Shown here: piece after piece, positions 6,001 through 43,399 of the stretch | Layout: every line of letters begins with the position of its first letter | Position numbering within the stretch: position 1 is the first letter of the stretch | Origin: Halichondria panicea | Lineage: Eukaryota > Porifera > Demospongiae > Suberitida > Halichondriidae | NCBI RefSeq assembly: GCF_963675165.1 | Contig: NC_087388.1 | Coordinates: forward strand, 5,275,047-5,339,046 | Reading direction: 5' to 3' | DNA: 64,000 nucleotides | Program-made: the position numbers and the translations under genes | The notes under the pieces: model-generated | The model's database searches: none | Seen by the model: only the letters and a program-made list of their open reading frames with translations | What the model was told of the DNA's origin: nothing

Positions 6001-9000
6001 GATAAACTATGGAACAATCAGATGCATGTGTCATGTGACTCACGGTTGGTATGAGGTTCCTAGTGGTCAGTCGAAGGTCCTGGGCCACCCTCACTGGTTG
6101 AGTATACTCACCAGAGGGGGGCGTGTCCAACAGGGGGCACTCAGCAGTGAAGTCATTGCCTCCAGACACCTGTACAGAGGATGTATAGAGTGAGTCATAG
6201 GTCACCATGAGCTCACCTGTAGGAAGTGAGATACATTCCTGCAAGGAACTGATGTTCCACTGCACTGCTTGTTGAGGTTACACCATCCACACGGACTATT
6301 CAGCCCAAGGCAATCCCTACAGCTATTATACATTTAAAGACATAATATCGTGTTCTCCCTATAATTATTTTAAGACGATGTTCTTGATTTGATAACATAA
6401 TTTTTATAGTCTGGCAAACATGATAAACATAATAGTTACATCATTTTACCTCGTTGTTTCTACACTGTAATTCACGATTTTTGTCGCGTATTGCACACTT
6501 ACTTTGAGTGAATCTGAGCATGCACACTTTAGTGTAAAATAATGCTAGGTTATAAACTAGGTTTGGGGAAGATTGTATCTGGGCATGGTTGGAATTCACT
6601 CTTTTTCAGTTGGCGAATTCCAATGACCAGTAAAACTGATTGTGTATAGGATATACCACACCTAAGAGGAGGATATGCACCCATATATCCTCTGCTACCG
6701 TGGTTACTCCGAGGCGGAGCCGAGGGGTATGTAACCACGGGAAGTTTGGCCTAGGATCGAGGCTAGCTAAGTACTAGATCTAGGTGGTATAGTAGCTATA
6801 AAGCTGTATCAAACAGTGGCGTAGCCAGGATTTTGAGAAGGGCAGGGCTCAAATCAGTTGAGCAGGGCCAGAGCATAACACCTAAAAAAAAGTCATAACT
6901 TTTCCTCAGCAGTCAGCATGCGCATTAGATGGCCCTGCCCACATTTTCATTCAATGACATTATTCTAGTAACTAAGCATGTAGTACAGTGCAGATCGCGG
7001 TGATTCAAGCTGAGTTGGAATTGATAAAGCACAAAAGGGGGGGGGGCTCTAGCCCCTCAGCTCCCCTTCTGCCTACGCCACTGTCAAATCGTAAATTAGT
7101 AGGTCATTGAGCATCAAGCCCAAGCTGTCCACTCCAGTGTGAAAGAAGGGACGTTTTATGTGGTTGCCTATAATTATATATACTGCATGTACGTGCATAT
7201 GTATGTAAATTGTTGCAGACAATGAACTTGGAACAATAAATTTTAGCGCTATATCTACCTGGACATAATTATCTAGATATAGCTATAGTTGCCAAGCGCT
7301 TTAGCGCGAGGCAACTAATACTGCATCGTATCTCAGAAAACCGTATTATGTATGTCATGCTCAGAAATGTCACGCTTTAGGAATACGGAATTGGGTGTGG
7401 CTACATTCAGTGAATCTTTATTACCTACAAACTGATCTACTATTGGCATAATTATTCGGAGAATAAAAGCTACATACTAGCTGGAAGAGCTAGCTGTAGC
7501 AGCTAAGCTATATAAGAGTCTCACATGAACAAAGCCAACAACGACTCTTGGAAAGAGATAATAATTATAGCGGAGTTCTTGAGAGACTGATTCTAACCAT
7601 AATTATATTATATATTTGCTATTTCATAATTATATCCAGGCCAAATCTCATTCTCTATACGTACGTACTCTCTAGCAAGTCTATATACTCTCCTTCTTTC
7701 TTAAAATAGTACTTAAATACAACTTCTGCGCGAGGATAATCATGCGTGTGCGTATACCTAGTTATTATTTCTTCAGCTGTATTTTCAGTAAAAATATATG
7801 TATGTTTTACTACACATGCAGTTTACTATATTACCACAGACACGCCCATGCAGACACATCTATCTATATCCCAGGCCTTGTTGTTCGCCCATTCAAGTGA
7901 AAACTCGGCCTGGCAACGACACTAAAGATTGACTACTAGCGATACACACATAAAATAACAATTGTGATCATTGATTTGTGGGGAGATGTATAATTTATGA
8001 GCTTATACTTGTTCTGAATTATTAATATCTCAAAATGGATGGATATACCTTTCTCCTGCTGAACAATTGTAGATGGTAATGGCTTGGTTGGTGATATCAA
8101 ATGGCTCATTGAATAAAGAGCTCTGAAAGCCCAGGTTAAAGGTTGCAGCCATTCCAGGATAGTCAGGTACCAGTCCTTGAATATCACAACTGAACACTGT
8201 TCCTGGAGTGACCTCAACAGCTGTTACTATGATGGGTGGGAAGTGTCCTTCATTGTCGGTCAGATGACAGGAGATGTTCTCTCCAGGAAGAGGGTTAGGC
8301 AGGCCGGGAGAGGTCAGAGTCACTGTGAGCTGTTGGGGTCAGTTTATGATGTCAGACACAACACACTACAAGCCTTACCTCAGTAGTAAGAATCTCAAGC
8401 ACGAGTTGCATAGGCTCCACAGTAGCAGCAGTAAAACAGTTGGAATTGTCCTGTGTCCATCTAATGGAGAGACTGGAGTTCTGACAGTGCGTGTGACGAG
8501 AGCACTTGTTCTCCACCACACACCACCCACACAGCGGGTTGAGGTCATTAGTACAACTGGTACAGTCTATACGCTGGGAGCACTTCTCTATGGGTACTTG
8601 GAACACCTTCAGAGGGGGAGGTAAAATGGATAGGGTAGAACATAATTATACATGCAAGCATTAACTCACAGCGTCTGTAGTGGCTGCTGTGATGTAGTTC
8701 AGTCCCTCCTGCCATAACAAATGATACACAAGAGAGGTCACTGACTGATTGTAGAATGAACTATCAGCATCCAGGGTAGATGTACCACTGACATCATACT
8801 GTGAAAAACAATGCTATTATTTACATGCACACTAACTGACTCAACCATCCAGCACTTACTCCTAGTATCCTACTATCACGGGTTGCAACAAACATGAAGG
8901 AAAACTGCTCCACCTTCACAGCTACTGAAGAAGTAGGGACAAGGCTGTCTCCGAAGTTGATACGAACTGGTGCTATTAGGTCAATACCACCATTTGGGAT

Positions 9001-10097
9001 GAGAAGGCCGACTGGACTGGGTGTGTCACATCTGTTGACAGGTATCTGGAAAATGAAGAGTGCAAGTGCGTGTGAAGTGCTATAGTAGTATAATAATGCC
9101 GTGCAGTACAAACCTGAGGCTGAGGCAGAGTATCGCAGCTTTCTGAGGAATCTGTTCGCCATGCTAAATCAATTTCTTCCCCAGCAGTGCGTGATACAAT
9201 ACAAGAGTCATATTTAGCGTCCATAGCTTCATTGGCAGCAGTGATATTGACCAGACAAATAGAATTAGTCATAGTATTGATAGAGCAAATAGTTATCACA
9301 GCAGTGGGTCCAGATATTCCACTGAAGTCATCCACTAATGACACTGCACACACATCAGTTAATCCATTGACAGACTGAAAGCCGCAATCGAACCCCAGTT
9401 CATACAAAGCAGTCACTCCACAGGTACTTTGTCCTCCACAATCAGGCATGTTGCAAACACGTAATAGTCTTACAGCTCGTGCATCAGCAGGTTGGATATC
9501 GGCGACAACATAGTAGGCAAATCCACCACTCACAAAACCACCGTATGCATGGAAGTATCGTTCAAAAAAATCTGTAATATCCTCAACAACCAGTTCATTG
9601 CGTGTGCCTGACGGATTGTTGTCGGAAGATCTTTTGAACCCCTCTCCGAATTGTTGCAGCACCATTCTCAGTACATATTCATCATCTTCAATCAGTGTTC
9701 CAGTATAGAAAGTGTCTCCTGACATAAACAAAGCTGCTCCAAAGTCCCCAAAGTACTGATCTGCTGAAACTATTATAGCATTACTGACACTCCTGATAGG
9801 ACCAGCACTGAGGTTGCTTGTATTGTAGACAGAGCAAGAGAGATCCTCTAAACACACCACCAACATCCCAGTAGAACTCAGGGCCAGTCCTTCGGTAATG
9901 ACAGTAGCTCCTAGATAAACTCTCTCCTCTTGTATTAGCTGTGCATTCAGTCTATACAGGTAGTTTCTTGCAGCAAGGAATGTTCTCCCAGTGGAGTCAA
10001 CTTGCAGTCCTGCGAGATTGCCAGACCTTTGAAAGGAGAAATATTGAGAATGAGCTGCTCTTTGCAGCAGAAACAAAAATAAGAGTGACAATAACAT
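1..10097 (-). CDS. Gene A: plexin-ectodomain receptor tyrosine kinase, 3' end cut by window start
   Basis: Nineteen exons are visible on the minus strand: 10097-9114, 9045-8860, 8798-8670, 8606-8379, 8329-8049, 6322-6217, 6169-6044, 5990-5892, 3936-3831, 3134-2946, 2735-2339, 2293-2029, 1317-1096, 1040-882, 833-610, 555-506, 454-362, 311-228 and 164-1. All borders are GT-AG and the joined frame stays open for 1364 codons. The start ATG opens a signal peptide ([18 protein letters not shown]). A Sema domain fills exons 1-4; PSI modules with CGWC cores sit in exons 4, 6 and 10, IPT modules in exons 5, 7-9 and 11-15, and a membrane helix in exon 15. The kinase starts in exon 17; the glycine loop and Lys lie in exons 17-18. 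HRD and DFG lie beyond the window edge. It is head to head with gene B. Domains are seen; ligand and function are unknown. Confidence 0.85.
1318..2028. other. Gene A intron 12 with dispersed repeat
   Basis: A 711-bp intron. Around 1750-1955 it holds a repeat with a CA-rich tract and a terminus ending CGAGGCATAATAA; related copies lie near 12640-12850, 30240-30355 and 45665-45860. Next to the splice donor, 2000-2024 matches one arm of the CCCGCTATACGG repeat seen at 62158-62345. No coding exon was seen. Confidence 0.5.
4055..4653. mobile_element. 599-bp MITE with 9-bp target site duplication (Mutator-like)
   Basis: The ends are inverted copies of about 60 bp, starting TAGCCTCGATTCAAGGCCGA and finishing with its reverse complement. 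The 9-bp direct repeat ACTATTTGC flanks it at 4046-4054 and 4654-4662. No transposase frame lies inside, so it is non-autonomous. A 9-bp duplication with long inverted repeats fits Mutator-like elements. Many shorter TAGCC...GGCTA elements in the window share these termini. Confidence 0.8.
5036..5860. repeat. Tandem direct duplication of about 410 bp in a gene A intron
   Basis: Two adjacent units, about 5036-5442 and 5459-5860, share the same order of segments: GAATACTGACTGTGTCTG, a GCCGAGGCGCATTAGCACAT block, and a final ATTCCACTGGATAATTCAAT. They differ by scattered substitutions and small indels, so the duplication is older than the large segmental copy. Introns of B and E hold one copy of this sequence in the same orientation relative to the gene. 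Confidence 0.7.
6323..8048. other. Gene A intron 5 with mobile-element relics
   Basis: A 1.7-kb intron between the IPT1 and PSI2 exons. It contains the 270-bp element at 6814-7083 and several fragments of the CCAGGCC repeat family (for example near 7870-7915). No exon-like open frame flanked by splice signals was seen. Confidence 0.6.
6814..7083. mobile_element. hAT-like MITE, 270 bp, CAGTGGCG termini, 5-bp TSD
   Basis: It starts CAGTGGCGTAGCCAGGA and ends with the near-inverse TGCCTACGCCACTG. The flanking direct repeat is TCAAA. The interior has no open frame and carries a G-run. It shares terminal sequence and duplication length with the element at 61096-61409. A 5-bp duplication fits the hAT5-type group, which I recall but cannot check here. 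Confidence 0.7.
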
Positions 10098-10166
10098 AGC
10101 TCTACCTCTTAGTCTTACTCTATTCTAGCATGCATTGCGATTGGCCTAAATAGAGCTGCATGCATG

Positions 10167-10221
10167 TAGATGGGCGTGCCCGTCCCCGGCCATAAAAATG
10201 GGGGGACGGGACGCCCATCTA
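10167..10221. mobile_element. 55-bp near-palindromic element upstream of gene A
   Basis: The arms read TAGATGGGCGTGCCCGTCCC and its near inverse around a short AT spacer. The 9-bp repeat GCATGCATG flanks both sides (10158-10166 and 10222-10230). It lies about 70 bp upstream of the gene A start codon. GCATGCATG is itself palindromic and common in this DNA, so the target-duplication reading is moderately sure. Confidence 0.6.
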
Positions 10222-12131
10222 GCATGCATGTGTGTGTTAGATTAGCCTTGTTGCCAGGCCGATTTGTCTCTAAAATAATGCTAAGTCGAGGCTAAAATAA
10301 GCCATAGACTATCTTAGCCTCCTTCACAATCAATAAGGAGGCTAGTCTCCTTCACAAGGCCTAAACAATTAGGCCTGCTACTGACTGCTTGCGCATGCGC
10401 AAAATTATTGGATAATATTCCCGTAATGTTTCCCATTAAACTGAATTTTTACCCGAATTATATCCTGAATAACATATACAGACAAAGAATACTCTTCATA
10501 AAAGTCAGACACAGAGCTATATAGCTAGCTAGCTAGATACAGAGCTGTATTGGTTACAGCAGCAATTTCTTTCTGATAGAGTCGACTTTCACCAAGATGG
10601 GCGTGGCCTATCCATATAGCCTATATTATAGGCTATTGTCAGCCTTCCCCTCCGTTCAGAGGATTGTTATCCACACTGTTGCAGGCTGTGAGTCCTTTGT
10701 TAACATAGTAGGCTAAGGGTAGCTACTATCACACGGGCTAGAAACCTTCACAATCACACTTCTATCCACTTTCTTCAATCCACTTCCGTTCGTTGTGACG
10801 TCATTGTTTTACTGAGCAAATATAATGGTATCCGAATTACCCACTTTCATGCGCAAACATACCAGGCCCTCTCTTCGAGGAAGAGCGGCCTGGGAGATCG
10901 AGGCTAAGATTATCTATGAATAAACTAGGCCGCCCAACTATATTTTGTTAGCTAGATTATGCTCGAGATTTGAGTGGGAGGCTTAAGCAGCTGTACTTAG
11001 CAAAACTTTATTATAAGCTTTCATATTCACTTCTTACTTCTCCTTATACTCATTCAGTTCTCCTAAGTCCTTACAAAGCTCTGTTTGTGCAGTTCTAAAA
11101 GGCTCTAAAGCTCCAGTGCATGCTGGCTGTCTCTAAGGAGTTCTTAGCTTTTTTTAGGTGAAATGCAGAGTCCGTCCATGCAGCTTGAGCCCTGCCTTGC
11201 ATGCCACTGAAACCCCCCTGACAAGAATCCTAGATCCGCCACTGTATTATGCTATTCTTTTATGCTCAAGTCTCTATGAATAATATTGAGGCTGTTATCT
11301 TGAGTCAAGTTAACAGCCAAATTGCCTATTATAATTCCCACATTATTTCTATAAGCACGCTCTCGTCATTGCACAAGTAACATCAAACTATAAATAATGG
11401 CCACACGACTCATCGAATGTCAAGGAAACAATTGAACCACTATAGTACTCACAAATATTTATACTATGATTCGTACTGAATTCTAAAACTTGCCTATTTT
11501 TGTTATAAATTAAGTTCCTATTTTACCAGGGCATATCCTTACCAAAAAATGTGCCTATAATGCTGAAAATTATGCCAGCATAATCTACCAACCTCTATAG
11601 TTGTCGACTCCTATATAGCATTAGTTTAGAGTAGTTATTTAGCGTTTTCAGATTTTTCTCCGTATACACATTAATTTTTGTCTAGTATCAGATATAACGA
11701 GTGTTGCAAGCATGCGCTTGCTAATGCCTCTCGCCATACTATGCTTTCGCTCAAAAAGTATTAGTGTTATAGTAGTTTCTATAATGAATTTATATTAAAG
11801 TTAGCTCATCTATATTAACTCACTGAGAAGAAAATACTTATTTACATGCATCTATTGTTGTTCAGGACCTCAAGAAAGAAGAAAATTGATTCTTCCAAGA
11901 TTAGTTCAGTGTATTATAATATCTATTGAGAAGAAAAGATTTGTATACATATCTATATTGGTAATGGTAGTGTTTTGTGGCTTACCAGGCCCTCATGAAA
12001 AAGATGACTCTGCCAGGAGAATCTGGATTCTGGATATTATTTTCTCACACGTGGGGAATGAGCGCGCATGCGCATTACATCCACAGGAATAATTAAAGGG
12101 TGTGTCCTAAGAGATGGCTACTATATAATAG

Positions 12132-12264
12132 TTAGACACTGTTTAGGAAGTTTCTACATGATTTAGAAGCCCAAAGGGCTGGTTGTAGTATCCCGAACGC
12201 AGTGAGGGTTCTACTAGCCCTGAGGACTTCTAAATCATGTGGAAACTTCCTAAACAGTGTCTAA
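12132..12264. repeat. 133-bp foldback
   Basis: The left arm TTAGACACTGTTTAGGAAGT and the right arm ACTTCCTAAACAGTGTCTAA are inverse, and the pairing continues inward through an ATGATTTAGAAG segment. The loop contains GGGCTGG and TAGCCCT. No coding content. Confidence 0.75.
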
Positions 12265-12331
12265 GCATTTTAGATCATAGCAACCATGAGTATTTAGCCA
12301 ATCAGATTTGAATGTTCTTATCTAATCTTTG

Positions 12332-12408
12332 CTACATGATTTTCTAAGTGAAGTACATGATTTTCTATTGAAGTACATGATTTTCTATTGAAGTACATGA
12401 TTTTCTAA
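12332..12408. repeat. Short tandem array, about 20-bp unit, four copies
   Basis: The unit GTACATGATTTTCTATTGAA repeats about four times with small changes in the first and last copies. It is absent from the second copy of the duplicated block because the whole surrounding segment is missing there. Confidence 0.75.
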
Positions 12409-12639
12409 ATTGGATAGAACATTTCCTCTAACCAATCAGATTGCAGTATTTATGGCAAACATGATCTAAACTATGAAATGCTAGCTGTTTTAACAGATAT
12501 TTTTTGACTCTTGTAGCTAACAAAAAGCTAGCGCTTTAGTGCAAGGCTAATTCATATGTTGAATAGAAAGTTTGTGCGAATAGATGATGCTATGAAAGAT
12601 TCTGAAGAGACTGTAACAGCCTTCAATGTGAGTCAAACT

Positions 12640-12850
12640 AGCCATAACTCGAGAAAGAAACTTTAGTTTGCTAATCCACAAATCAAAATCCAAGAGAACG
12701 TGGCTAGAAGCCTATAGAAGCTGTTAGTTTTCGTCGGATTGCAACCGTTGAGCAGTTACAGCTGGAACAGACACACAGACAGACACACACAGACACACAC
12801 AGTCAGCTTTACCGTATCCCTCCTGCGGCTACGCCTCGAGGCATAATTAT
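12640..12850. repeat. Dispersed CA-rich repeat ending CGAGGCATAAT
   Basis: A block with ordered parts: a TAGTTTGCTAATCCAC segment, a GAGCAGTTACAGCTGGAACA segment, a CACACAGACA run, and a terminus ACCGTATCC...CGAGGCATAAT. Related blocks lie near 1750-1955, 18880-19270 (partial, rearranged) and 45665-45860, so this is an interspersed family, class unknown. Confidence 0.6.
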
Positions 12851-13506
12851 AGGGCTATATTTTGCTTAGCATTCTCTCAAAGTAAGTTTTTATCATAGCC
12901 AGTCAATCTTTAGTCTCGTTGCCAGGCCGAGTTTTCACTTTTATATTGATCATAATTATGCAGCTGTACCTATTTTAAGGCATGTAATTTCGGTCAAAGG
13001 TAAACCACATGCAGGAATGCTTGATCATTTCTGCTGCCGGGTGAATTTAAATTCCAGGCATATCTATTATTATAAACTAGCCTCGTTCCCAGGCCGATTT
13101 GTCTCTAAAATAACGCTAGGTCGACCTAGCGTCATTTTAATTTATGAGCTAAAAATATAGATCTTGAGCATAGCATAACATTGCAGTTTTACCAGCAGTA
13201 TAGCATAATTTATACTCATAAATTAATGTTTACTATATGGAATGAATATAAACAAGAACACTAATCTAATTATAAATCAAGTTATAATTTTGTTTAGACC
13301 CTGCCATACATGTCTTGAACCCAACCATTTTGTTATGGTTTTGTATGTTTTAATCGCATGAGTCCTATATAGGTACATTTACTTGATATATTCATGTAAC
13401 AGTGTTAAGTATATATAGTATATATATTATTATATACCACACTTATTATTATAAACCACCCCTATTATGAGTTCTATTGTGACTGACTCTTGTTATAACA
13501 CTATTA

Positions 13507-13595
13507 TAGCCTTGTTCCTAAGCCGATTTGTCTCTAAAATAAAGCTAGGTCGACAACCTAATTATAAGAGACAAATCGGCCTGGGAACAAGGCTA
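13507..13595. mobile_element. 89-bp palindromic TAGCC...GGCTA element upstream of gene B
   Basis: The outer arms TAGCCTTGTTCCTAAGCCGA and its inverse enclose GATTTGTCTCT...AGAGACAAATC. It lies 76 bp upstream of the B start codon. It is translated in an upstream extension of the first-exon frame, which is one reason to prefer the downstream ATG. The copy at 46520-46608 is nearly the same. Confidence 0.7.
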
Positions 13596-13670
13596 TCTAA
13601 CACACGCTATTTAGGGCCATCGCATGCATGTAAAGACCATTCCGCTTTACCTCTGGTAAGACTAACAGCT

Positions 13671-15373
13671 ATGTTACTGTCACTCTTATTTTTGCTTCTG
13701 TTGCAAAGAGCAGCATATTCTCAAGATTTCTACTTTTCTAGTCACACAGGAATTTTCCCAGGACTGCAAGTTGACTCCATTGGGAGAACATTCATTGCTG
13801 CAGACAACTACCTGTATAGACTGAATGCACGGCTAATACAAGAGGAGACAGTTGATCTAGGAGCTACTATCATTGATGAAGGACTTGCCCTGAGCTCTAC
13901 TGGGATGTTGGTGGTGTGTTTAGAAGATCTTTCTTGCTCTGTCTACAATGCAAGCAACCTCAGTGCTGGCCCTATCAAGAGTGTCAGTAATGCTATAGGG
14001 GAAGATATAGGATTTGGAGTAGCTATCATTACGTCAGGAGACAGTTTCTACACTGGAGCAATAACTGATATAGGTCAAAGAATGGTACTGCAACAATTCG
14101 GAGAGGAGTTCAGTAGATCTTCTGAAAACAATCCATCAGGCTCACGCAATGAACTGGTTTTTGGGGTTAGTGATTTTGGACGACAATTCTATCCATTCGG
14201 TGGTTTTGTAAGTAGTGGATTTGCCTATTATGTTGTCGTCGACTATCAACCTGTAAGTGCACGAGCTATAAGACTATTACGTGTTTGCAACCTGCCTGAT
14301 TGTGGAGGCCCAAGTACCTGTGGAGTGACTGCTTTGTATGAACTGGGATTCGATTGCGGCTTTCAGTCGATCGCTGAACATACTCATGTGTGTGCAGTGT
14401 CATTAGTGGAGGATTTCAGTGGGATATCTGGACCCATTGCTGTTATAAATCTTTGCGTGGGTACTAACTCTATTTGTGTAGTCAATATCACTGCTGTCAA
14501 TGAAGCTATGGATGCTAAATATGACTCTTGTATTGTGTCACGGACTGTTGGAGAAGAAATAGGTTTAGCATGGAAAACAGGTTCCTCAGAAAGCTGCGAT
14601 ACTCTGCCTCAGCCTCAGGTTTGTATGCCATATACTGGCGTTATTATTATTATAGTAATTCACATGCACAGTCATATATATATATACACTTCATTTTCCA
14701 GATAACTATGGACAGATGTGACACAACCAGTCCAGTTGGCCTTATCCTTCCAAATGATGACATTGACCTAATAGCACCACTTCGTATCTACTTCGGAAAC
14801 AGTCTTGTGCCCATTGCTTCAGTAGCTGTGAAGCTGGAGCAGTTTTCCTTTGTGTTTGTTGCAACGTACCATGATAGTAGAATACTAGGAGTAAGTGCTG
14901 GATGGTTGAGTCAGTTAGTGTGCATGTAATAATGGCATTGTTTTTTCACAGTATGATGTCAGTGGTACATCTACCCTGGATGCTAATAGTTATTTCTACA
15001 ATCTTCCAGTGACACCTGGTGTGTATCTTTTGTCATGGAAAGAGGGACTGGACTACATCACAGCAGCCACTACAAACTCTGTGAGTTAATGCTAATATGT
15101 CCTCCCCTTATCAACCCCGGACTCCCCTCTCTGTAGGCGTTCCAAGTACACATAGAGCAGTGTTCCCAGCATATAGACTGTACCAGTTGTACCAATGACC
15201 CCTGCCCACTGTGTGGGTGGTGTATAGTGGAGAACAAGTGCTCTCGTCGTTCGCAGTGTCAGAATACCGATCTCTCCATTAGATGGTCACAGGACAGTGC
15301 CAGCTGTTTTACTGCTGCTACTGTGGAGCCTATGCAACTTGTGCTTGATCCTGATATTTTTGCTAATAATGAG
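13671..15373 (+). other. Gene B: signal peptide, Sema domain and PSI1 (exons 1-4)
   Basis: Exon 1 encodes the signal peptide and most of the Sema propeller, with blade-like strands such as [20 protein letters not shown] and conserved cysteines ([18 protein letters not shown]). Exons 2 and 3 complete it. Exon 4 carries PSI1, spaced CTSCTND...CGWC...C. Sema plus PSI is the ligand-binding head in plexins and MET. Confidence 0.8.
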
Positions 15374-18300
15374 GTAAGGCTTGTGTGTTTATATTTGTAT
15401 TTGAGATCATTCATAAACTGACCCCCACAGCTCACAGTGACCCTGACCTCCCCCGGCCTGCCTAATCCCCTTCCTGGAGAGAATATATTCTGTCATCTGG
15501 CGGACAGTGAAGGACGTTTCCCACCTATCATAGTACCAGCTGTTGAGGTCACCACGGGAACTGTGTTCAGTTGTGATATTGAAAGACTGGTACCTGACTA
15601 CCCTGAAGTACTGAGTGCAACCATCAACCTGGGCTTTCAGAGCTCTCTGTTCAATGAGCCATTTGATATCACCAACCAAGCACTCACCATCTACAAGTGC
15701 TCAGCAGGAGAAAGGTATATATCATTCAGGACAAGTTTAGTTTTCTAGATAAATACAACTTTCACAAATCATTTTATGTGAGTAGCTAGTCCTTTTATAT
15801 CGGATGGGCGAACAAATAGGCCTGGGATAGATTGTATCTGGGCGTGTCTATAGCGATAGTAATTTGCGTAGTAGTAACATTGTAACGTGTATACTTCACT
15901 GAAAATACAGCTAGAGAAATGACAAAGAAAGTATGCTATCTAAAAATTATGTCCAGGTAGATAGGTTCCAGCTTTAACTCAGCCTGTGGACAAGGCTAGT
16001 CAAAAATAGTTATGTTTGCCATACTATAAAAGTTATGTTCTCAAATCAAAAACATTGTCTATACAATAATTATGTCTATATGATAATTATAACCCATTGT
16101 GTACATGCAGCTGTAAGGATTGCCTTGGGCTGAATAGTAGTCCGTGTGGATGGTGTAACCTCAACAAGCAGTGCAGTGGAACATCAGTTCCTTGCAGGAA
16201 TGCATCTCACTTCCTACAGGTGAGGTCATGCATGTGATCTGTGACTCTATACATCCAGTGTACAGGCGTCTGGAGGCAACAACTTCGCTGCTGTGTGCCC
16301 CCTGTTGGACACACCCCCCTCTGATGGGTACATTCAACCAGCAAGGGTGGCCCAGGACATTCGACTGACCACCAGGAACCTCATACCCGCCGTGAGTCAT
16401 GCACATGACACAAGTATCTGATATATTGTTCCATAGTTTCCCTCTCCATTAGACGGATGGCTTTGAGTACTATTGTCTTATGAATGGAGTTAGTCTGAGA
16501 GCTCAGTATGAAAACGAGAGCTCCATCTTGTGTACAGTGGGCAGTGGGCAAGTGAGTATTTTACTATTTTTGTGATGGTTGGCTTATGTGATTGAATTAT
16601 CCAGTGGAATGAAGAGGATCGCTTGTACTGTTTGTCACAAAAGATACTTGAACACAATTACGTGCTTGATTAACATGTATATGAATGTTGCAAGTTCCGC
16701 TGTACATGTGCTAATGCGCCTCGGCATTTTGCTTCGCTCCAAAATTTTATAGAGTATGTAGAATAACTAGGACTGTATAATGTGTATCACGATATTCATT
16801 GTTTACAAGAAATAATTAGAGCAAGATCTAGAGTAATACAACTAGTGTTATGGAAGAGGAGCTCAAGTCTCACAATGACTGCTGCATGTTTCTTGCATAA
16901 AACTAAGAGAACATGGCTAGAAGCTTAGGCATTGCAATATTCGTAACAGTTATCTAGGACAGACACAGACACAGTCCGTATTCCTCGTGCGGCTATACAC
17001 TGTAAAAAATGATGTGTGGTTTTTACGCTATTGTGGCAAACGTGCGTTTTTCCTGATAGTTGCCACAATAGTTATGCACTTGCGTCAAAACCACACATCA
17101 TTTTTTACAGTGTACACAGTCATGTACTTGTAAACACATTCCCTATTAAATAATAGCAAGCATATAATTATGATAATTGTACTAATTGTACATACTGACG
17201 ATTTGGTTTACAGCTCACACTTCCCCCTGGTGTTGGAAGTGTCACTGTGGTTGTTATGGTAACCTGGATGGGGAATGATATCAACCACACACTGAGCAAC
17301 AACATGCAACAATTTTCAGGTACCGTTATATCTGTCGACCATGCATGATAGACGCTTCCAGATAGTCTAGACAATCTACTAGTTAACCCCGTACCCACAC
17401 ACAGTGACGTTGTATGATTGTCGTGACTTGGCCAGTGGATATTTGGAATGTATTGCAGTCAGAATGAGGTCAGAGTTTGCATGTGGGTGGTGTGGGGGTT
17501 TTTGTGAGGTGAGGCAAGAGTGCTCCAACGCTTTCATTACTGATGGGAACAATCCTGCCCCTGTCATCAACTCATTCACTCCAATGTCGGGTAAGAATGC
17601 AGTGAGTGTATAATTATAGTATACTAATGCTAACTCACTATAATTAATGTGATGATACAAAACTTAATTCTGACCTATATCCCCAGGACCAGTTGAAGGT
17701 GATACAGCAATCACTGTGACAGGCACTGACTTCGGAAAAACTTTTGTCCTCATTCAGACCTCCAGTCTTACATTAGGAGGCGTGGCCTGCACTCCCCTCA
17801 TCACTGGTTACATACCATGGCAGCAGTTTGTCTGTGAGACCACTCATTTTTTAACAGAAGGGTCAAAAGACTTCTCTCTGACCATTAACTCTAGAGCAGC
17901 CATTGTAAACGCTGGCTCCTTCACTGCAGTGGAACCTACTGTCAGCAGTATGACTCCAACCTTTGGATCCATGGATGGGGGAACTGCAGTGGTTGTGATG
18001 GGGACTGCACTGGATGTGGGTAATCAGGAGGACACTAGAGTCTCTCTGGAGATCAGTGGGTCAAACTACGTCTGCAACATATCGTGAGTGATACTATTGA
18101 GTAGCTATTGCCAACATTTTCCCTTCAGATCTATCGAGTCTCAAGAGATTCATTGCAGGACCTCAGCAACAAACCTCACCTCCGCTGCATTAGTGGTAGT
18201 GTCCATTGATGCTGCCAGAGTCAGCAATCCAGGAGTGGTCTTCATTTATCGTAACAACCCCAATGTTACTGCCGTGTTTCCTAGCAACACCATTCCCAGT

Positions 18301-21300
18301 GGAGGCATTACACTGACCTTTACTGGACTGGACTTGGATCTGGTACAACAGCCTGTGTTGGAGGTCTACCAGCCAATGGGTGCTCCTCTGGTGAGTCAGC
18401 AACTACCGTAGTAACTATAGAGAGTCTAAATGTAAAACTTTGTTTTATCGAAATTACCCGTGTATGCGCAGCGTGCAGAAGAAGTCGAGTGATTGAGTGT
18501 GTATATTGTGTGTGTATATTGTGTGTGTACGTGTGGACACAAAAATGAGCTGTTTGAGAAATACACACTTTCATGGATTGCTTTAACTGCTGATGAGACA
18601 GACAGCACACTGTAAAAAAGGATGTGTGGTTTTCACAACTATCAAGAAAAAACGCAGGAAAAACCACACATTTGAGACACAATAGTCACGTACCCTGCCT
18701 GAAAACTGAAAACCACACATCATTTTGCGTAATGGGGAATGATCATGAATCTATAAAGCAACAATTAAAAAACAGTGTTTTTTGTCGCCTTCGAAGATCG
18801 CGTACTTATAACTAGCCTATTATTTTAGTCTCTACACTGTAAATAATGATGTGTGATTGTAAAAAGTTATTATGCCTCGAGGCGTAGCCGCACGAGAGAT
18901 ACGGTAAAGCTGACTGTGTGTGTGTCTACAGGAATAATTAAAGGGTGTGTCTGCAAAGAGTTCACAAATGGCTACTATAACTAGCTGCTTTAACATAATT
19001 ATCTTTTCTGATTCTCGTATATATATAGCCAACAAAAAGCTAGCGCTTTAGTGTAATACTAACTTATAAGTTGAATAGAACTTGGTGCGAACAGATGATG
19101 CTACAAAAGATTCTGAAGAGACCTTCAATGTGAGTCAAACTAGTCATAGCTCCAGAAATAAGCTTTAGTTTTCTAATCCATGAATCGAGAACATGGCTAG
19201 AAGCCTGTTAGTTTTCGTCGCATTGCAACCGTTGAGCAGTTAAAGCTGGAACAGGCACACAGTGGCTGTGGATGTAATGCGCATGCGCGCTCGCCCCTAC
19301 TTGTTAGAGAATCCAGTGACTTACTTCTTTTTCTTGAGGTCCTGGTATACCGGTAAGCCACAAAACACGACAATGATACCATATAGAATAGATAACAATA
19401 GATGCATGTACACAAGTCTGGTAACAATAATTATAGATACATGTACACAAGTTTTTCTTCTCAGTGATAGATATACATTTCTGTTTGTTTAGATACTATA
19501 CTGTCTGTGCTTAAATTCTCTCCTATACTCTGTGCGTTTGACAAAGGTTTGCATGTTATTTAAATGGCTATACAGGCCGTTTAAATAACATACAGTTGCT
19601 TCAGTATTGTTGAAGATTATTCTTCAAGCCATCAGATCGATAGGCTTATGTTTCCATTCAGCTCCTCCCCTATATTAATGACTGTGTGGAATTCAATTAT
19701 GTCAACAATTGTAATCAGCAATAATAACGTAACATTATACCTCTTCACCTATTCTAACAGTTTTTGAGTGAAAGCAAAACAACGGCGAGAGGCATTAGCA
19801 CAGCGCAGCTTGCACCACTCGTTGTATCCGTGTTGTTTCTATGCAATGATTTTCAATGCACTAGGTGAATGCTCAATACATGATGCACTGTCTCTCCGCT
19901 ACAGAGGAGAAACTGCAGTGTTGTGGATAATACCACCATCACATGCTTGACTCCTAGTCTGACAACAACCTCACTGACCCCATTGGACTATGCCCTACTG
20001 TTCGATGATGTCTCACTCATCACACAAGCACGTCTCCCCATCAGCGTCCAACCAGATCCCTCTAAATTTAGACTAGATAGTTCTCTAGAGGTCACCAGTG
20101 GCACAGAGACGCTCATACGCATTGTGGTTTGTATTATTAGCTAGTACATGCACTGGCGCTATACTGTTACCGTGTGTGTATCCAGGGTGATAATCTCGAC
20201 TCAGTGGAGACTAGTGAAATACGAGTGACCGTGGGAGGGGAGGAGTGTACCAAGACATCCTCCAATAGTACAGGTAGTGTCCTCTGTACTGTCCCCTTGC
20301 AACCGCCAGGAGGAGAAAACTCAGCCATCATTCAGGTGAGTGACTATAATACGTAGCTATTAAACCGTAAATTGTGTTACTGTGATCTTCAGGTGAACGT
20401 TGGGAGCAACATCTCTCGAGTATTGGACCAGCAACTGACCTACACAAGTCCTGTGACTGCAGATCCACTGGAGATCATCATCCCGAGTGTATTGGGGGTT
20501 ATTGTGATGATCGTGTGTATAATGCTGACCATTTTTGTCTGTGTCTATCTAAAGTCTCGAAGAAAGACCATGTCAATTGCTATGCATGAGCAGATGATGG
20601 AAATCGTGGCTAATACGTAATAATTATTGTCTATGCCATAATTATATAGCTGTTCAATCGTCTTATTCATTGTTACAGGGGAACACAGGAGGATCTATTT
20701 CCTGCGGATGGCAACACAGCACTCGTTAGTAAGTTTATTAATAGTTTGCACTGAATATTCACCGACCCACAGAATCGGAGCTCGATGAGATTGCTGAGTC
20801 CATCCCAGACTCAATCAAAATACCAGCCTCCATATTGAAGCTCTCCAGTACTGCAATAGGACAAGGTAAAGAAAGATGTGCAAATAATTTAATGGGAATG
20901 TCGCCTTATTATAATTATACAGGTGAATTTGGCATTGTGTACAAGGGAGTTCTGACAGACTGGAACAGTGTACCTATTCAAGGGGTGGCCGTGAAGACAT
21001 TAAAAGGTGCATTACTCTGACATCAATACAGTATAATATCATAGCTATAGCTTATTAAGCATACATGCATGCATGGAAATCAAATAATTATGCTTCCCCC
21101 TATAGAGATTACAATTTCTGCAATTATAACCTCATTGTCTACCTTGCAGGTCTGTTCTCAATGTCCGATGTTCAGAGCATGGTGTTTGAGGTGACCAAGA
21201 TGCAGGACTTTGACCATCCTCACGTTATGTCCCTGATTGGGGTGTGTCTCGATGCTGGCCCTGGCATTGCCATAGTGATGCCATATATGGCCAACGGGAG

Positions 21301-23400
21301 CCTCATTAGCTATCTCAAGAAAGAGAGGAGCAGCCTTGAGTTGGACGATGAGTGTGAGATTGATCAGGTGTGTGGTATAGCTAGTTGAACTAAAGCCTCT
21401 CAGTATCTATATCAATACTATTATCAAAGCTATAATAGTTCAATTTGAGCTTTATGGGGATAGTCTCATTATAGGACAAGGTGCATGGTGAGCTTTTTCA
21501 GAACACCAACAATTTGTGTGAGGAAGCTCTTGACATTTTCTACAGATTCTGGAAGTGAGGAAACTGCTACTAAAGATGTGCCATCAGATAGCATTGGGAA
21601 TGACCTACTTGGCCGAGCATAAGTTTGTCCATCGCGACCTTGCAGCCAGAAACTGCATGTGAGTGAACCATCGACTGCATGTGTGTATACAGAGAAGACA
21701 AGCATCAATAGTATAATCTAATCTATAAAGTTCAGAATACACATATAATAGTGATAGCTTTTACTGTTAATGACCTTCACATTATGGGGAATGATAGTGA
21801 ATCCACAAGACTATAAAGCACGATGAGGTTGTCAATGATTAGAAAACACGTCACATCAGCAGTTAAAGCAGCAGTCCATGAAAACGTATAGTTTACTTGT
21901 GTCCACACACACACACCAATCACTCTATTCCTGCTGCGCGCACGAGGTAATTACAAATTATTATGAGAGAACTTTCGTTGCTATTTTATATATTATACGT
22001 ATCCAATATTGTAACAGCATCACAAGCCAACTAGATATGATTGTATTGATTTGACAAACTGCATGTGGACTGTTGTACAGATCATGCACCAATATAAATA
22101 TGAGCATTCGCACACTGGTTAGATAATAATTGTCTCAGTGCATGTGCATGATTCTATATAGGCTGGACTCGGGAGGGGGTATCAGGGTGGGGGACTTTGG
22201 TCTGGCTGAGGACGTCTATGCTAGTGGCTACTTCAAACAGAATGACCGAGGCAATGTGAAGCTGCCCTACAAATGGATGGCATTGGAGAGTCTCAAGGAT
22301 GCCATCTTCACAGAGAAAACTGATGTGGTGAGTCAGTACGTCGTAGGCCTTAAGATGACCCTCAAGTTTGCTAGTACATACAATATTTTACTTGTTTTCC
22401 ATGTGCCCAGTGGTCATATGGTGTGACTTTGTGGGAGATTTTCAATGGAGGAAGGACCCCCTACCCTGCCGTTGACCCGCTGTCCCTCATCCAGCTGCTG
22501 AAAGAGGGGCGGAGACTAGAGAAACCTCTAAACGCAGCCTGTGCCACAGAGATGTGAGTGTATACTCTGGCTTCGTATACGTATAACTATTATCGTAGCA
22601 GTTTCATTGAGCCCTGTTTTAGCAAGCCCTTTAAACTTTTGGAAGCAGGGCTGGCAATCTGAGTAGACTGGAGAGAGCTATATAATTATAGGGCTGCATA
22701 TCATTTGAGTCATTACAATTGACTGTATACATTCCCTCTTATCCTCACACAGTTCTGAAGTGATGTCTCAGTGTTGGAGGGAAGACCCAGAGGAGAGGCC
22801 AACCTTCTCACAACTGTCCTCCATTGTGGAGAGACTACTGACATCCATTTCTGGCTATACTGAACTTGGTATGGTGCTACTGAACCCACTTCAAGAAGCA
22901 GAGGAGCTCAGTAAGCAACATTTTACTCTATATCGTATAATTATAGCAGGTATAACTTTCGTTGGTGAAATGTTCGTACAATCTACCCATTTAATATTCG
23001 TACAACTCAGGATAGTGCACGATGTTGAAACTATTGTACTAGAACAATTTAGCAGTACGATAATAACCCGTATGGTAGCCTACGACATGCACATTTCGTA
23101 TATACGTATATAAAGACTTTTTGCATTTGTTCAGTATACCGCTACTACTATATTATTATGCCCATGCAAAGTGAAGGATCCTCAGTTGTTTAAAGTAGTG
23201 GGTTTGAATCAAGGCTATTATGTTTGGATTGGCTAGCTTATGTCATCATTTTTACTGCAGAATGTGACGGTGAACCCACACTTACTGATCATGAAGACGT
23301 TCATCACTATGTCGACCCTCCGTCAAGTTATCCTCTAACAATTAAGAACAGCGGAGCGTACAACCCCAGGGAAGAAATTACTACAACAGACAATTTATAA
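13671..23400 (+). CDS. Gene B: plexin-ectodomain receptor tyrosine kinase, complete
   Basis: Twenty-four exons: 13671-14618, 14702-14890, 14952-15080, 15137-15373, 15431-15714, 16111-16219, 16266-16391, 16453-16551, 17214-17319, 17405-17590, 17687-18083, 18129-18390, 19905-20126, 20186-20335, 20393-20616, 20679-20728, 20773-20865, 20923-21006, 21150-21367, 21546-21658, 22162-22327, 22411-22553, 22753-22910 and 23261-23400. They sum to 4833 bp, giving 1610 aa. The ATG is placed at the hydrophobic signal ([18 protein letters not shown]); the frame is open 68 codons further upstream, but that stretch is a palindromic repeat. Order: Sema, three PSI and six IPT, helix about 1176-1201, kinase about 1262-1550. 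Catalytic parts are present: GQGEFG, VAVK (about Lys1295), HRDLAARN (about Asp1402) and DFG (about 1420). It should act as a plasma-membrane receptor kinase; ligand unknown. Confidence 0.92.
16998..17112. mobile_element. 115-bp MITE flanked by TA (Tc1/mariner-like)
   Basis: Inverted ends CACTGTAAAAAATGATGTGT and the reverse complement are flanked by TA on both sides. It lies in intron 8 of gene B. Related damaged copies lie at 18607-18735 and from about 18836; an intact duplicate lies at 50013-50127. Confidence 0.75.
18391..19904. other. Gene B intron 12 with mobile-element relics
   Basis: A 1.5-kb intron. It contains MITE relics at 18607-18735 and from about 18836, and part of the CA-rich dispersed repeat at about 18880-19270. 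No exon with intact splice signals was seen inside. Confidence 0.65.
18607..18735. mobile_element. Degenerate MITE related to the 115-bp TA-flanked element
   Basis: It starts CACTGTAAAAAAGGATGTGT and ends AAAACCACACATCATTTTGC, without the final TTACAGTG. A further one-ended relic begins near 18836. Both are in gene B intron 12 and recur in the E copy near 51609-51733. Confidence 0.55.
20393..20616 (+). other. Gene B: membrane-proximal stalk and transmembrane helix (exon 15)
   Basis: The exon encodes the end of IPT6, a short stalk, a hydrophobic run of about 26 residues from [15 protein letters not shown] onward, and a basic stop-transfer KSRRK. The same exon is 224 bp in A, B and E, 254 bp in D and 230 bp in F; the differences lie mainly in the stalk and are multiples of three. 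Confidence 0.88.
20773..22910 (+). other. Gene B: tyrosine kinase domain (exons 17-23)
   Basis: Motifs in order: [19 protein letters not shown], helix-C Glu in [19 protein letters not shown], hinge [59 protein letters not shown] and [12 protein letters not shown]. The activation loop reads [12 protein letters not shown], so the second of MET's twin tyrosines is Phe. The layout is closest to MET/RON; TAM-like is the next best guess. Confidence 0.88.
23261..23400 (+). other. Gene B: C-terminal tail exon
   Basis: The last 46 codons follow the kinase and end at TAA (23398-23400). The tail contains [11 protein letters not shown] and, further on, AYNPRE. Tyr-Val-Asp-Pro fits the pYxxP pattern that Crk-type SH2 domains bind. 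It is conserved in D and E and in changed form in F (YISP). Phosphorylation is inferred only. Confidence 0.7.
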
Positions 23401-23831
23401 CTAATGTATATGGAGTAATGTAATTGCTCTGCAGCATGCATGCATGTAGTGATAGCTGGTGCAACGGACCATGCATGGTACAATGTAGTTTATTACACAC
23501 ATCGGTGTTTATCGTAGCGTAGTGATCGAGTATAATACACGCTTTGCACATTTTTATTATTCTTCCATGCAATAATATTATCATGCAGTAGTGAACAAGT
23601 ATTGTTAAAAGATATATCCAGATATAAATTAGCCAAATGTATAAGATAGAGGATTATATCAAAATAACCATCTCTCTGCAACACCAAGCAGTACATTGTT
23701 ATATTAGTTGTATATTCGGACACAATGATATAATTATACTATATAATATTTACTAAGCGTCAAAGGGCACAATTAAGAGAGAGGGCTGCTGCTTTGAACT
23801 GTCTGCCATTCCTGTGCATGGAATTATTTTG

Positions 23832-24913
23832 CATGAGCGTCTCTGTGCCACTGGTGACCTCTTGGGAATCACATGCAGAGAAGCCTGTAGTTTCTGTTGC
23901 ATTGCAACTCTAACAGTTACAGCTGGAACAGACACACACTTTATTGAATACACTCCGGATGATGATCCAGTGGAACTACAGTCACAGGACTTGCATGTGT
24001 AGGTCAATTGCTGGTCCAATACTTGAGAGATGTTGCTCCCAACGTTCACCTGAAGGGGACAATAACACGATTTAGCTATATACAGTTTTAAAAGTCACTC
24101 ACTTGTATGATGGCTGGTTTTCCCCTCCTGGCAGCTCCACGGGGCCGTACAGATGATTTCACTCCCTCTTAAGCTACCGGGTGTCGTAGTACACTCCTCC
24201 CCTCCCACTGTCACTCCTATCTCACTGGTCTCTACTGAGTCGAGATTATCACCCTGGATACACACATGGTAACAATATAGTCAGTATACTAGCTAATAAT
24301 ACATACCACAATGCATATGAGCGTCTCTGTGCCACTGGTGACCTCTAGAGAACTATCTAATTTACGTGATTGGACGCTGATGTGGAGGCGTGCTTGCATG
24401 TGTGGTGAGTGGGACATCATCAAACAGTAGGGCATAGTCCAATGGGGTCAGTAAGGTCGTTGTCAGGAGTCAAGCATGTGATGGTGGTATTGTCCATAAC
24501 ACTGCAGTTGCTCCTCTGTACAGTGCATCATGTATATAGTAATACTGTATATATTTTTGAGCACAACGCCTTGAATAAGCCACAAGTAGCTGCAAAAATT
24601 TAATTCAGCAATTTGTGACCATCCAAAATTACTCGCTATAGGGTAGCTTACCAGGGGAGCCCCCATTGGCTGGTGGTAGACCTCCAAAACAATGAGTTGT
24701 ACCACGTCCAAATTCACTCCAATAAAGGTCAGTGTGATGCTTCCACTATAGGAATGGTGTTGTTAGGAAACACGGCAGTCACATTAGGATAACTGAAGAT
24801 CACTCCTGGATTGCTGACTCTGGCTGCATCAATGGACACCACCACCAATGCAGTGGAGGTGCATGAGGTTTGATGCTGAGATTCTGCACAAAATCTCTTG
24901 AGACTGGATAGAC
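23832..24913 (-). pseudogene. Decayed receptor fragment (exons 15-12 of the A-F family), copy 1
   Basis: Exon 15-like sequence ends at 24049 but breaks off before the membrane helix, running into a dispersed repeat. Exon 14-like is 24103-24253 (151 bp, one base out of frame against 150 and 159 in intact genes). Exon 13-like is 24307-24515 (209 against 222 bp, frame lost). Exon 12-like is 24652-24913. A stray exon 13 tail lies at about 23835-23866. There is no kinase and no Sema region. It duplicates at 56866-58160. Confidence 0.8.
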
Positions 24914-27782
24914 CTGCTGGGAAGAAAAGTTTGGTACTCGTTTTAGACCACAAGAAAATCTTCCTCAATGTTACTTGTCTATGAATGTTATTAAAGGATT
25001 TTTGTCCCTAACTAAAGAAACTGTTTTACCAACTCAGCAGTGCTGTTACAAGAATGGGTAAGTCAATAATAATTATACATAAGTGATTGCAAGTATATTG
25101 TAAGCTACCTCAGGTCTATTATATAAACCATTCAGAATTTGTGAATCTGGAGACAACAAATGTGCAAACCATAGACTAACTGATAATTATGATCTATGAA
25201 TAATTATTATCCAAGAAATATAATTATAGCGCTTTAGTGACAAATCGTAATGAAGGATATGCTGGAACATGGCTACTCCAGCACCCTATCAGAGAACGTG
25301 AGGCTTATGAAAGAGAATTTACCGACCGCCTTCATCCATACAGTGATAAAACATTCAGAGATGCATGCTGTAATGAAGGACAGAAAAATGACTGCAACAT
25401 ATTCTTTAACCAAAGAGGCATCGTTACAGATGACGGTTATCTGTCTCCAGCTTTAGGTTAGCCCACACATTTATAACATGCGCTTTTGCACAAATGTCAG
25501 ATGCGACATATACGTAGCCATTTGCACAAGTGCATGCATACATGATTCTTAATTGGTTAGTACAGCTTTTCTGAAGTGTAACAAACATAATTATGATTTG
25601 AGGCCAGTTTATTATCATGCAGCTATAATTATTAAAATTAATTGTACAGCTGTTGGTAATGGAGACCCGCACTACCGGCCATTTGATTTTAAAGGAAATC
25701 GTCATCATTTTCAAGGTGTAGGACACTTCATCATTCTAAATCTTGTTTCTTCAAGCCAAAGTGCATCAGAATTTTCTATTCATGGGCATTTATGTCAACT
25801 TGGTTCGAGAGGTGTTACCTGGCTTTTGGAAACTTAAATATTGCTTTTGAAGTAAGTGTATAATACTACTGTGACTGAATACAATTCCCTTGTACCAAAC
25901 ATGTGCATTGTTTTCATATCATATGCCACTCTATCTATCTTAACTGAAACTATCTTACTAATAATTCGATTGATGCAGTTGGGAAGACTTCCAGGATTCC
26001 AAATGTGGCAAACAAGGCCAAATGAAACAAACTTAACACAATTATTAGAAGACCAACCAACTTGGAAAAGTCCTGATGGAGATGTAGAGTTAGTCAGATT
26101 GCGTCGACATGGCGGGAGAGATACAGTCGTGGCATGCTTTTTTGAGTATGGTATAAAACCCCCCATGGTATAAAAATAACCGTTAACGTTGGTCAATTGA
26201 AAAGAAGATATCGATACAATAACTACAAAGTTTGGGTTCCCTTAACCTACGCTGGTAGAGCTTCAGGACTTCTAGGGAACTTAGATGGAAATGATACAAA
26301 CGATTATTTCGAAAGGGGTCAAGAAACCAATCCACTTCCACACTACTATTCAGACAGGGAATTGTACAATAACCACTGGTTGACATGTAAGTTAGTGTAT
26401 TCATGTATATACCTGTTTTCATGCAATTGCTATATATAATTCCCTCTGATATTTATACTGGGGCTGTATGTTATTTTTCTATGTATTGTACAGCTATTGA
26501 CCAATAAGATCAATTAGTGGTGACGTACGTAAGTGTGGTATAAAACCTTCATTTTTCAGGGAATTTATCTGCTGGAGAAAGCCTCTTTTCCCATCATTTA
26601 CAATGTCCTGATAAATCTCTAAAGAAGCATCAGGCATCATATGCTCCGATTACACCAGACCAACTGAACTTTACCGATGAGCAAAAGAGGATCTGTGAAG
26701 GCAATCTACAATGTGTGTTTGATTTAGCTGTTTCTGGGGAAAAAGAAGTTGCTTTAGCAACGCTAACTCATGAAAAATAAGCGAATTCATCAATTGAGAT
26801 CCTAGGTATACATATATGCTTGCCTGTATTTAATTGCAATATTACTTGTTTTCATACAGATAACTACCCACCAAATATCACAGCTGAGTCCACTTTCAGC
26901 GTTACAGTTAGCCAAGAATCAGTTCTCTATCTTAGTGTGAATGACTCAAGAGATAATTTCACCTTAAGTGTACTGGGAGACATACCAACAACTTCTGTAC
27001 TTGAAGAATTGTCAAGGGGAGAGTTTGTATTTCGCTGGACACTATACAAAAGATAACTTACAACCCCCTAATCTTTCTTGCAAATGATAGCCGAGGAGCT
27101 GCTTCACTGTACGCACCCCGAGTTGAAATTTGCAACTGTTTCAATGATGGGAATTGTACCCTTGATGGAATTCTGAGTGATAATGCAACAGCAGTACTAA
27201 CCTGCCTTTGTACACAAGGTTAATTGGCTTGCTAGGAAATAGATTATAGCTATAATTATTCAAAGTCCGTTATGCAGCATTTGGTGAGAGGTTCTGTGAA
27301 GAAGATCGCAATGGGTGCTCAGAGATCCAGTGCTTCGAGGGGGTGGAGTGTATGGACGTTCCTGCTCCTGGAGTGGGGGCGGTGTGTGGAGCATGTTCGC
27401 CAGGCTACACTGGAGACGCACTCAAGTGTTATGGTGAATTGAGATAAATCGTATTACTTTGTCTATAATAATAATGAGCGTGCAGATATTGATGAGTGCT
27501 TCCTAAATCAAACTCTCTGTGACCACAATTGCACAAACACTGATGGAGGGTATCTTTGCTCCTGTTTTAATGGCTATCAGCTAATTAAGGAAACAAGGGA
27601 ATGTGAAGGTGATTACTAGATTCCAATCAAATTATGGTATGCACAATAATTATGTTCTAAAGTCCTAAGGTCATTGTTGTACACTCCATGCATGCTTGTG
27701 GGATTTTATACTTGTAATCAAGGCCCGATTAATGTACGTGTTATGAACAAACCACCTTTGAATTATATAATATGCTTCTCAC

Positions 27783-42469: not shown

Positions 42470-43399
42470 CATGCTAAATCAATTTCTTCCCCAGCAGTGC
42501 GTGATACAATACAAGAGTCATATTTAGCGTCCATAGCTTCATTGGCAGCAGTGATATTGACCAGACAAATAGAATTAGTCATAGTATTGATAGAGCAAAT
42601 AGTTATCACAGCAGTGGGTCCAGATATTCCACTGAAGTCATCCACTAATGACACTGCACACACATCAGTTAATCCATTGACAGACTGAAAGCCGCAATCG
42701 AACCCCAGTTCATACAAAGCAGTCACTCCACAGGTACTTTGTCCTCCACAATCAGGCATGTTGCAAACACGTAATAGTCTTACAGCTCATGCATCAGCAG
42801 GTTGGATATCGGCGACAACATAGTAGGCAAATCCACCACTCACAAAACCACCGTATGCATGGAAGTATCGTTCAAAAAAATCTGTAATATCCTCAACAAC
42901 CAGTTCATTGCGTGTGCCTGACGGATTGTTGTCGGAAGATCTTTTAAACCCCTCTCCGAATTGTTGCAGCACCATTCTCAGTACATATTCATCATCTTCA
43001 ATCAGTGTTCCAGTATAGAAAGTGTCTCCTGACATAAACAAAGCTGCTCCAAAGTCCCCAACGGTCGTGTCCTATTATAGCATTACTGACACTCCTGATA
43101 GGACCAGTACTGAGGTTGCTTGTATTGTAGACAGAGCAAGAGAGATCCTCTAAACACACCACCAACATCCCAGTAGAACTCAGGGCCAGTCCTTCGGTAA
43201 TGACAGTAGCTCCTAGATAAACTCTCTCCTCTTGTATTAGCTGTGCATTCAGTCTATACAGGTAGTTTCTTGCAGCAAGGAATGTTCTCCCAGTGGAGTC
43301 AACTTGCAGTCCTGCGAGATTGCCAGACCTTTGAAAGGAGAAATATTGAGAATGAGCTGCTCTTTGCAGCAGAAACAAAAATAAGAGTGACAATAACAT
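42470..43399 (-). pseudogene. Gene A': truncated duplicate of gene A exon 1
   Basis: It matches gene A from its start codon to 9160 but lacks the last 46 bases of exon 1 and every later exon. A substitution block near 43060-43074 replaces 21 bases of A with 13, a net loss of 8, breaking the Sema frame. The signal peptide and first 130 codons stay open. The promoter side is intact, so it could still be transcribed. Confidence 0.85.

Follow-up and report, generated by a model that had tools for sequence, protein, structure and literature searches.

A receptor tyrosine kinase with a complete plexin ectodomain in the sponge Halichondria panicea, probably formed by joining a plexin to a sponge kinase

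The stretch of DNA analysed in this study (the window) comprises 64,000 nucleotides of the Halichondria panicea genome (contig NC_087388.1, hereafter C12, positions 5,275,047 to 5,339,046). Its gene B is probably a real single-pass receptor tyrosine kinase (RTK) with a complete plexin ectodomain, belonging to a tandemly expanded sponge family that arose by plexin-kinase joining in a demosponge ancestor. Its exon structure was worked out by combining open frames and splice sites with matches conserved between paralogues, GT-AG being imposed when introns were chosen. Between the start ATG at 13671 and the stop codon at 23398-23400, its 23 GT-AG introns have compatible phases and give a reading of 1610 residues without internal stops. 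The parts of B are listed in Table 1, in which the boundaries of the Sema, PSI and IPT parts are approximate and were set by us.

A first-pass annotation of the window had read the extracellular part of B as Sema-PSI1-IPT1-PSI2-IPT2-PSI3-IPT3-IPT4-IPT5-IPT6, an order borne out by Pfam, by alignments to plexins in PDB and by a Sema profile comparison. Pfam matched TIG/IPT (2.5e-26, four stretches) and PSI (1.1e-11, two stretches) in B, and three PSI stretches in its close relative PLX1. In phmmer searches of PDB sequences, for which the B query begins at residue 18, human plexin-A1 aligned over query 250-1047 (B 267-1064, 189 bits), plexin-A2 over query 249-1116, and plexin-A4 over query 402-1116 (B 419-1133, 167 bits); these alignments span PSI1, IPT1, PSI2, IPT2, PSI3 and IPT3-6. 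For human MET, the best stretch was query 750-1118 (B 767-1135), and its total of 105.7 bits includes one further stretch that passes the permissive cutoff of E=10. The ten-domain order is considered right because of these plexin alignments and the Pfam matches and, since plexins align across PSI1-IPT1-PSI2-IPT2 as well as PSI3, a reading with only one PSI falls away. The signature stretches quoted in support of the plexin order, including LYDCRDLA before the CGWC of PSI3, are present, and the single PSI and four IPT ascribed to MET agree with Junqueira Alves et al. 2019 (PMC6374515).

The Sema domain is the most divergent part of this order. Pfam Sema gave no match in B up to E=1, exon 1 of seven family members matched no Pfam model of any kind, and an exon-1 profile searched against PDB found no Sema; the Pfam Sema model matched four places elsewhere in the genome, none of them inside the window. 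A profile of exons 1-3 built from seven sequences was compared by hhalign with a Sema template of three sequences, namely plexin-A3, MET and the C15 semaphorin of the same genome, a short PLX2 piece being omitted. The alignment ran end to end over 364 columns with a score of 52.4 and a probability of 88%, against a maximum of 29.6 among 100 column-shuffled templates. The comparison with plexin-A3 as single template was weak (score 32.2, probability 15.5%, shuffled maximum 26.6 in 60). The first part of the ectodomain is accepted, from the profile-profile comparison only, as a putative and very divergent Sema propeller.

The intracellular part of B is a tyrosine kinase, as first annotated, and not a plexin RasGAP domain: Pfam PK_Tyr_Ser-Thr (PF07714) matched at 1e-80, the kinase motifs GQGEFG and VAVK are present, and PF08337, the plexin cytoplasmic RasGAP model, was absent from B and found elsewhere on C12. 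The description of this kinase as MET-like stands in so far as it matches MET (221 bits in the PDB search; 43% identity), but the label is loose, as MER is equal (220.6 bits; 44%) and the tree groups the kinase with MET/RON and TAM together. EGFR, nominally the best PDB kinase match (307.9 bits), was set aside because its score sums two tandem domains of 152 bits each. In the kinase tree, the sponge kinases form a clade (100/100) within a group with MET/RON and TAM (99/97; 99/96 in a smaller set); inside that group, sponge plus TAM received 76/62, and sponge plus MET/RON was not rejected (p=0.36). After the kinase, [GD]Y-x-[EQ]-[LF] occurs in all 13 printed tails that reach the site (17 loci), and YVDPPSSY, with tyrosines seven apart, was found only in B, D and E among the tails examined; any correspondence with the docking site after the kinase of MET (Y1349 and Y1356, seven apart) is tentative.

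Across the genome, the Sema exon has 42 matches, namely 28 intact copies, PLX1 and 13 fragment rows. All of the intact copies lie on C12 at 4.56-5.57 Mb, and each is followed on the same strand, within 10 kb, by an IPT3 exon and a kinase exon. The contig holds 31 IPT3 places and at least 33 kinase-exon places (the kinase-exon counts are lower bounds); three of the former and at least five of the latter are without an intact Sema exon. Seven of the 28 copies (A, B, D, E and the genes of loci L016-L018) were modelled through the ectodomain, and stops were checked in these seven; the L018 model contains an odd exon split of 103+8 bp. Genes A, D and E were said to share the plan of B, and they do, judging from the exon models of A and D and from E, which lies 10 residues from B.

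The nearest relatives of both the ectodomain and the kinase are found in the same genome, which supports an independent fusion in this lineage. The plexin RasGAP family was located at two places on C12, PLX1 and PLX2. PLX1 is the closest ectodomain relative outside the family, being 65% identical to B over 1009 aa, against 31-33% for human plexins and approximately 31% for the IPT region of MET. It has 12 ectodomain exons, and the phases of all 11 introns match those of B. PLX2 shares 28% identity with B over PSI3-IPT4, and its model, built with B as query, is unreliable outside the conserved parts. In the ectodomain tree, ten family members and PLX1 group together (99/99), separate from PLX2, human plexins and MET. 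Synonymous divergence (dS) between PLX1 and each of six copies is 0.50-0.60, compared with 0.20-0.46 among those six; in PSI3-IPT4 it is 0.60-0.80 for PLX1 against at most 0.57 among ten copies. Since these silent-site distances are larger to PLX1 than within the copies, PLX1 is placed outside the family.

For the kinase, six sponge kinases (L002-L007) are 67-72% identical to that of the family and share its exon lengths of 84-218-113-166-143 in five loci, the last exon of L007, at the end of the modelled match, being 144. Kinase-family clusters lie on C1 (3.85-4.49 Mb), C11 (2.15-2.32 Mb), C5 (2.32-2.44 Mb) and C6 (2.31-2.37 Mb). The domains upstream of these kinases are quite different from those of B: same-strand upstream open reading frames (ORFs) match SRCR in L004, Sushi without IgGFc-binding in L003 and L005, and both IgGFc-binding and Sushi in L002, L006 and L007, the two matches of L007 coming from separate ORFs. 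The 16 upstream ORFs were picked by eye, three of them from PLX1, and 11 of the 13 from kinase loci matched; their position suggests that the IgGFc-binding, Sushi and SRCR frames are exons of the downstream kinase genes. An assignment of L005 to the SRCR type (tree label SRCRlike) was wrong, as its upstream ORFs match Sushi and not SRCR. On C1, C6 and C11, home of kinase relatives, neither Sema nor PSI3-IPT4 was among the matches listed. Kinase dS is 0.16-0.46 within the family, at least 1.6 against L002, L003, L006 and L007, and at least 2.6 or not computable against L004 and L005. High kinase divergence from these relatives together with low ectodomain divergence from PLX1 therefore indicates an old kinase lineage and a young link to PLX1. 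The kinase is also the more constrained half, with a ratio of nonsynonymous to synonymous divergence (dN/dS) of 0.20 in the B-A and B-D comparisons, against 0.42-0.53 for the ectodomain. In a six-copy comparison, the highest 45-codon window average was not above 0.74, and there is therefore no sign of strong positive selection in that test.

Several observations weigh against this account. The PLX1 ectodomain is followed by exactly 5000 N (C12:6727672-6732671) before Plexin_RBD and Plexin_cytopl (1.6e-54), so that this run of N lies between ectodomain and RasGAP. The kinase tree neither separates the family from the remaining sponge kinases as a clade of its own nor shows its root, and one clade of family kinases was not rejected (p=0.44). 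The B-E ectodomain dN/dS is 0.93, from few differences. Protein trees nest PLX1 among the copies, with L016 (93/93; 82/87), a position that would also fit an ectodomain acquired by PLX1 from an RTK. Such a reverse transfer, with the RTK family older and the plexin PLX1 having captured, or been converted by, an RTK-type ectodomain, would also suit the end of the cluster lying about 1.2 Mb from PLX1 on the same contig. It is nonetheless unlikely, given that PLX1 is more distant in dS from each measured copy than those copies are from one another, that PLX1 as sister to all copies was not rejected (approximately unbiased test, p=0.126), and that the plexin architecture, which already occurs in choanoflagellates, is the older one (PMC6374515). 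Gene conversion might distort both the placement of PLX1 in the trees and the silent-site distances.

The size of the family could be inflated if haplotypes had remained uncollapsed in the assembly, B and E then being alleles. The two units are indeed about 99% identical across some 15 kb, but the shared unit ends inside other family members, its left end falling in a truncated A-like Sema exon and its right end in an IPT fragment, and exon 1 of the remaining 26 intact copies shows 71-89% identity with that of B, which makes this explanation quite unlikely. The B and E units form a recent segmental duplication (approximately 99%; 12.5 kb plus 3 kb) with breakpoints inside neighbouring family fragments.

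Two origins had been offered in the first-pass annotation, an independent fusion in this lineage and a MET ancestor that already had a complete plexin ectodomain, from which MET later lost modules while the sponge retained the old form. The grouping of the kinase with MET/RON and TAM, and the sponge plus MET/RON clade that was not rejected, are consistent with the second. However, B is far more similar to PLX1 than to the IPT region of MET or to human plexins, the silent divergence of the family from PLX1 is low, and the contigs of the kinase relatives gave the negative result described above; moreover, the Sema domains of Met lie within a bilaterian-only clade, with weak support (posterior probability 0.53; PMC6374515). 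From these comparisons, independent fusion appears best supported, and inheritance from the MET ancestor very unlikely. That adjacent but separate plexin-like and kinase genes were mis-joined by the model is extremely improbable, for the junction introns are phase-compatible in B, A, D and E, order and strand are kept in 28 of 28 loci, and no stop separates the two halves in the model of B.

The architecture itself is already known. Met-LP, which the first-pass annotation did not mention, is a named receptor kinase with a complete plexin ectodomain, reported from Capitella teleta, Aplysia californica and Acanthaster planci and inferred to have had two independent origins in Bilateria (PMC6374515). 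Gene B, as modelled, resembles it in combining Sema, three PSI and six IPT with an intracellular tyrosine kinase after one transmembrane (TM) helix, and in having multiple copies, as in the starfish Acanthaster, where there are four Met-LP copies and a plexin adjoins a Met-LP gene (PMC6374515). The differences are the sponge host, the 28 Sema-bearing copies against four in starfish (PMC6374515), the kinase from a sponge family with other domains upstream, and the presence of partial-plexin hybrids. MET and RON share with B the Sema-PSI-IPT ectodomain and a kinase within the same larger group; their truncated ectodomain is not that of B, which also aligns with plexins over PSI1-IPT1-PSI2-IPT2, and the kinase of B is no closer to MET than to MER. 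Plexins, PLX1 in particular, have the same ectodomain order, and PLX1 the same intron phases through exon 12, but B has a kinase instead of RasGAP. For the sponge Amphimedon, plexins and semaphorins only are reported, including four plexins with short cytoplasmic parts, and no Met-LP (PMC6374515). In the searchable part of the open-access literature, no paper announcing a sponge Met-LP was found, and none is described in the accessible portions of PMC8242945, PMC8662651, PMC6485061 and PMC6792448; the first of these mentions a sponge plexin and a Sema gene and, for receptors of Halichondria, domains of the Sushi, Calx-beta and IgGFc-binding types. The likely novelty is thus the sponge host, a further independent origin and an unusually large shuffled family.

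In the fusion proposed here, a plexin ectodomain, with PLX1 as its nearest relative, would have been joined upstream of the juxtamembrane exon to the kinase of a sponge RTK family in a demosponge ancestor, the plexin being the presumed donor. The Sema propeller and PSI/IPT stalk may recognise a semaphorin-like molecule or some different ligand at the surface, upon which receptors would pair, their kinases would phosphorylate one another and the tail tyrosines, and phosphotyrosine would replace the plexin RasGAP signal. A semaphorin-like frame of 804 aa was observed at L043 (C15:2837400-2840600, minus strand; Pfam Sema 1.2e-14, with PSI-like and TM parts seen by eye), and this semaphorin is a candidate ligand. 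If the fusion is right, joining of plexin ectodomain and kinase was repeated, not confined to bilaterians and occurred at least once in sponges, and the 'Met' architecture alone is therefore uninformative on Met ancestry. The young plexin link and the kinase relatives with other ectodomains would also make the steps of receptor invention testable.

Partial-plexin hybrids were found at L012-L015 (C2, C4, C5), four of the six IPT3-bearing places outside C12, which share PSI3-IPT6 and the kinase and are without a Sema match. Their models upstream of approximately exon 8 appeared to be chance joins, and in two of the four loci an ORF scan took their place; in L012, L014 and L015 the modelled kinase is cut short. 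Upstream ORFs match Calx-beta and Sushi in both scanned loci, L013 and L014, and SRCR in addition in L013 (six of nine scanned), and their order and strand suggest that they may form one transcript with the kinase. These arrangements raise the tentative possibility of a combinatorial repertoire, in which one kinase module in clusters of tens of genes is combined with interchangeable ectodomains, be it a full plexin, a partial plexin preceded by Calx-beta, Sushi or SRCR, IgGFc-binding together with Sushi, or SRCR, and would serve recognition of neighbours or microbes rather than of a fixed guidance cue. A constrained kinase with a faster-changing ectodomain is as expected for such recognition, and the large family, if so read, would be a candidate recognition system in a neuron-less animal.

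The neighbouring family genes of the window are included in Table 1. Gene A has 24 exons and 1599 aa modelled, with exon 19 crossing the window start, exons 20-24 beyond it and the 3' part in L019; gene D likewise has 24 exons, with 1624 aa modelled. Both models are free of stops, but the aligner used avoids stops. For gene G, IPT3 lies at C12:5339350 and the Sema exon at C12:5344076.

Table 1. Features of the window, in window coordinates, with the basis of each assignment
Feature	Position	Strand	Basis or remark
Gene B, plexin-ectodomain receptor tyrosine kinase	13671..23400	+	Splice model, 24 exons, 1610 aa; domain searches
B, predicted signal peptide	13671..13724	+	Sequence; hydrophobic start
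B, putative divergent Sema propeller	13725..15145	+	hhalign 52.4 vs shuffled maximum 29.6; Pfam: no match
B, PSI1-IPT1-PSI2-IPT2	15146..17276	+	Pfam PSI 430-479; aligned to plexin-A1/A2/A4
B, PSI3-IPT3-IPT4-IPT5-IPT6	17277..20428	+	Best Pfam TIG stretch 795-884; plexin-A4 alignment to B 1133
B, transmembrane helix	20456..20545	+	Hydrophobic stretch in exon 15, judged by eye
B, tyrosine kinase domain (GQGEFG; VAVK at 1292)	20850..22822	+	Pfam PF07714 E=1e-80; PDB MET/MER; motifs
B, C-terminal tail, tyrosines in GYTELG and YVDPPSSY	22823..23397	+	Sequence
Gene A, exons 1-18 and most of exon 19	1..10097	-	Spliced model; remainder beyond window start
Unit shared with 42470-57981	9160..24936	.	12488-24936 99.06% identical; 9160-12124 98.5%
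IPT fragment without kinase, remnant	23756..25007	-	Near-copy at 56790-58207
Gene D, 24 exons, ATG at 39102	31156..39102	-	Modelled down to 31156; stop not placed
Truncated Sema-exon fragment, remnant of A-like gene	42457..43426	-	Sequence matches
Gene E, recent copy of B	46684..56423	+	Differs from B at 10 residues (10 nonsynonymous and 3 synonymous codons)
Gene G, TM to tail, 10 exons modelled	59491..63391	-	Sema and IPT3 exons beyond window end

In both B and E, introns 8 and 12 contain short inverted-repeat elements resembling miniature inverted-repeat transposable elements, with the shared core AAACCACACATC, at 16996-17114 and 18616-18726 of the window and with counterparts near 50037-50106 and 51634-51715. 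Elsewhere in the genome, five silicatein-type genes (L038-L042; C2, C6) have Ser replacing the catalytic Cys, with active sites CGASYAF or CGSSYAF, and two cathepsin L-like frames (L036, L037) have CGGCWAF or CGSCWAF at the active site; Homoscleromorpha and Hexactinellida lack functional silicateins (PMC10772126), and the five genes make a siliceous demosponge the most likely source of the genome. A COX1 fragment at L001 (C1:5280527-5280718) has two in-frame TGA, fits a code in which TGA encodes Trp, and is likely a mitochondrial insertion in a nuclear contig.

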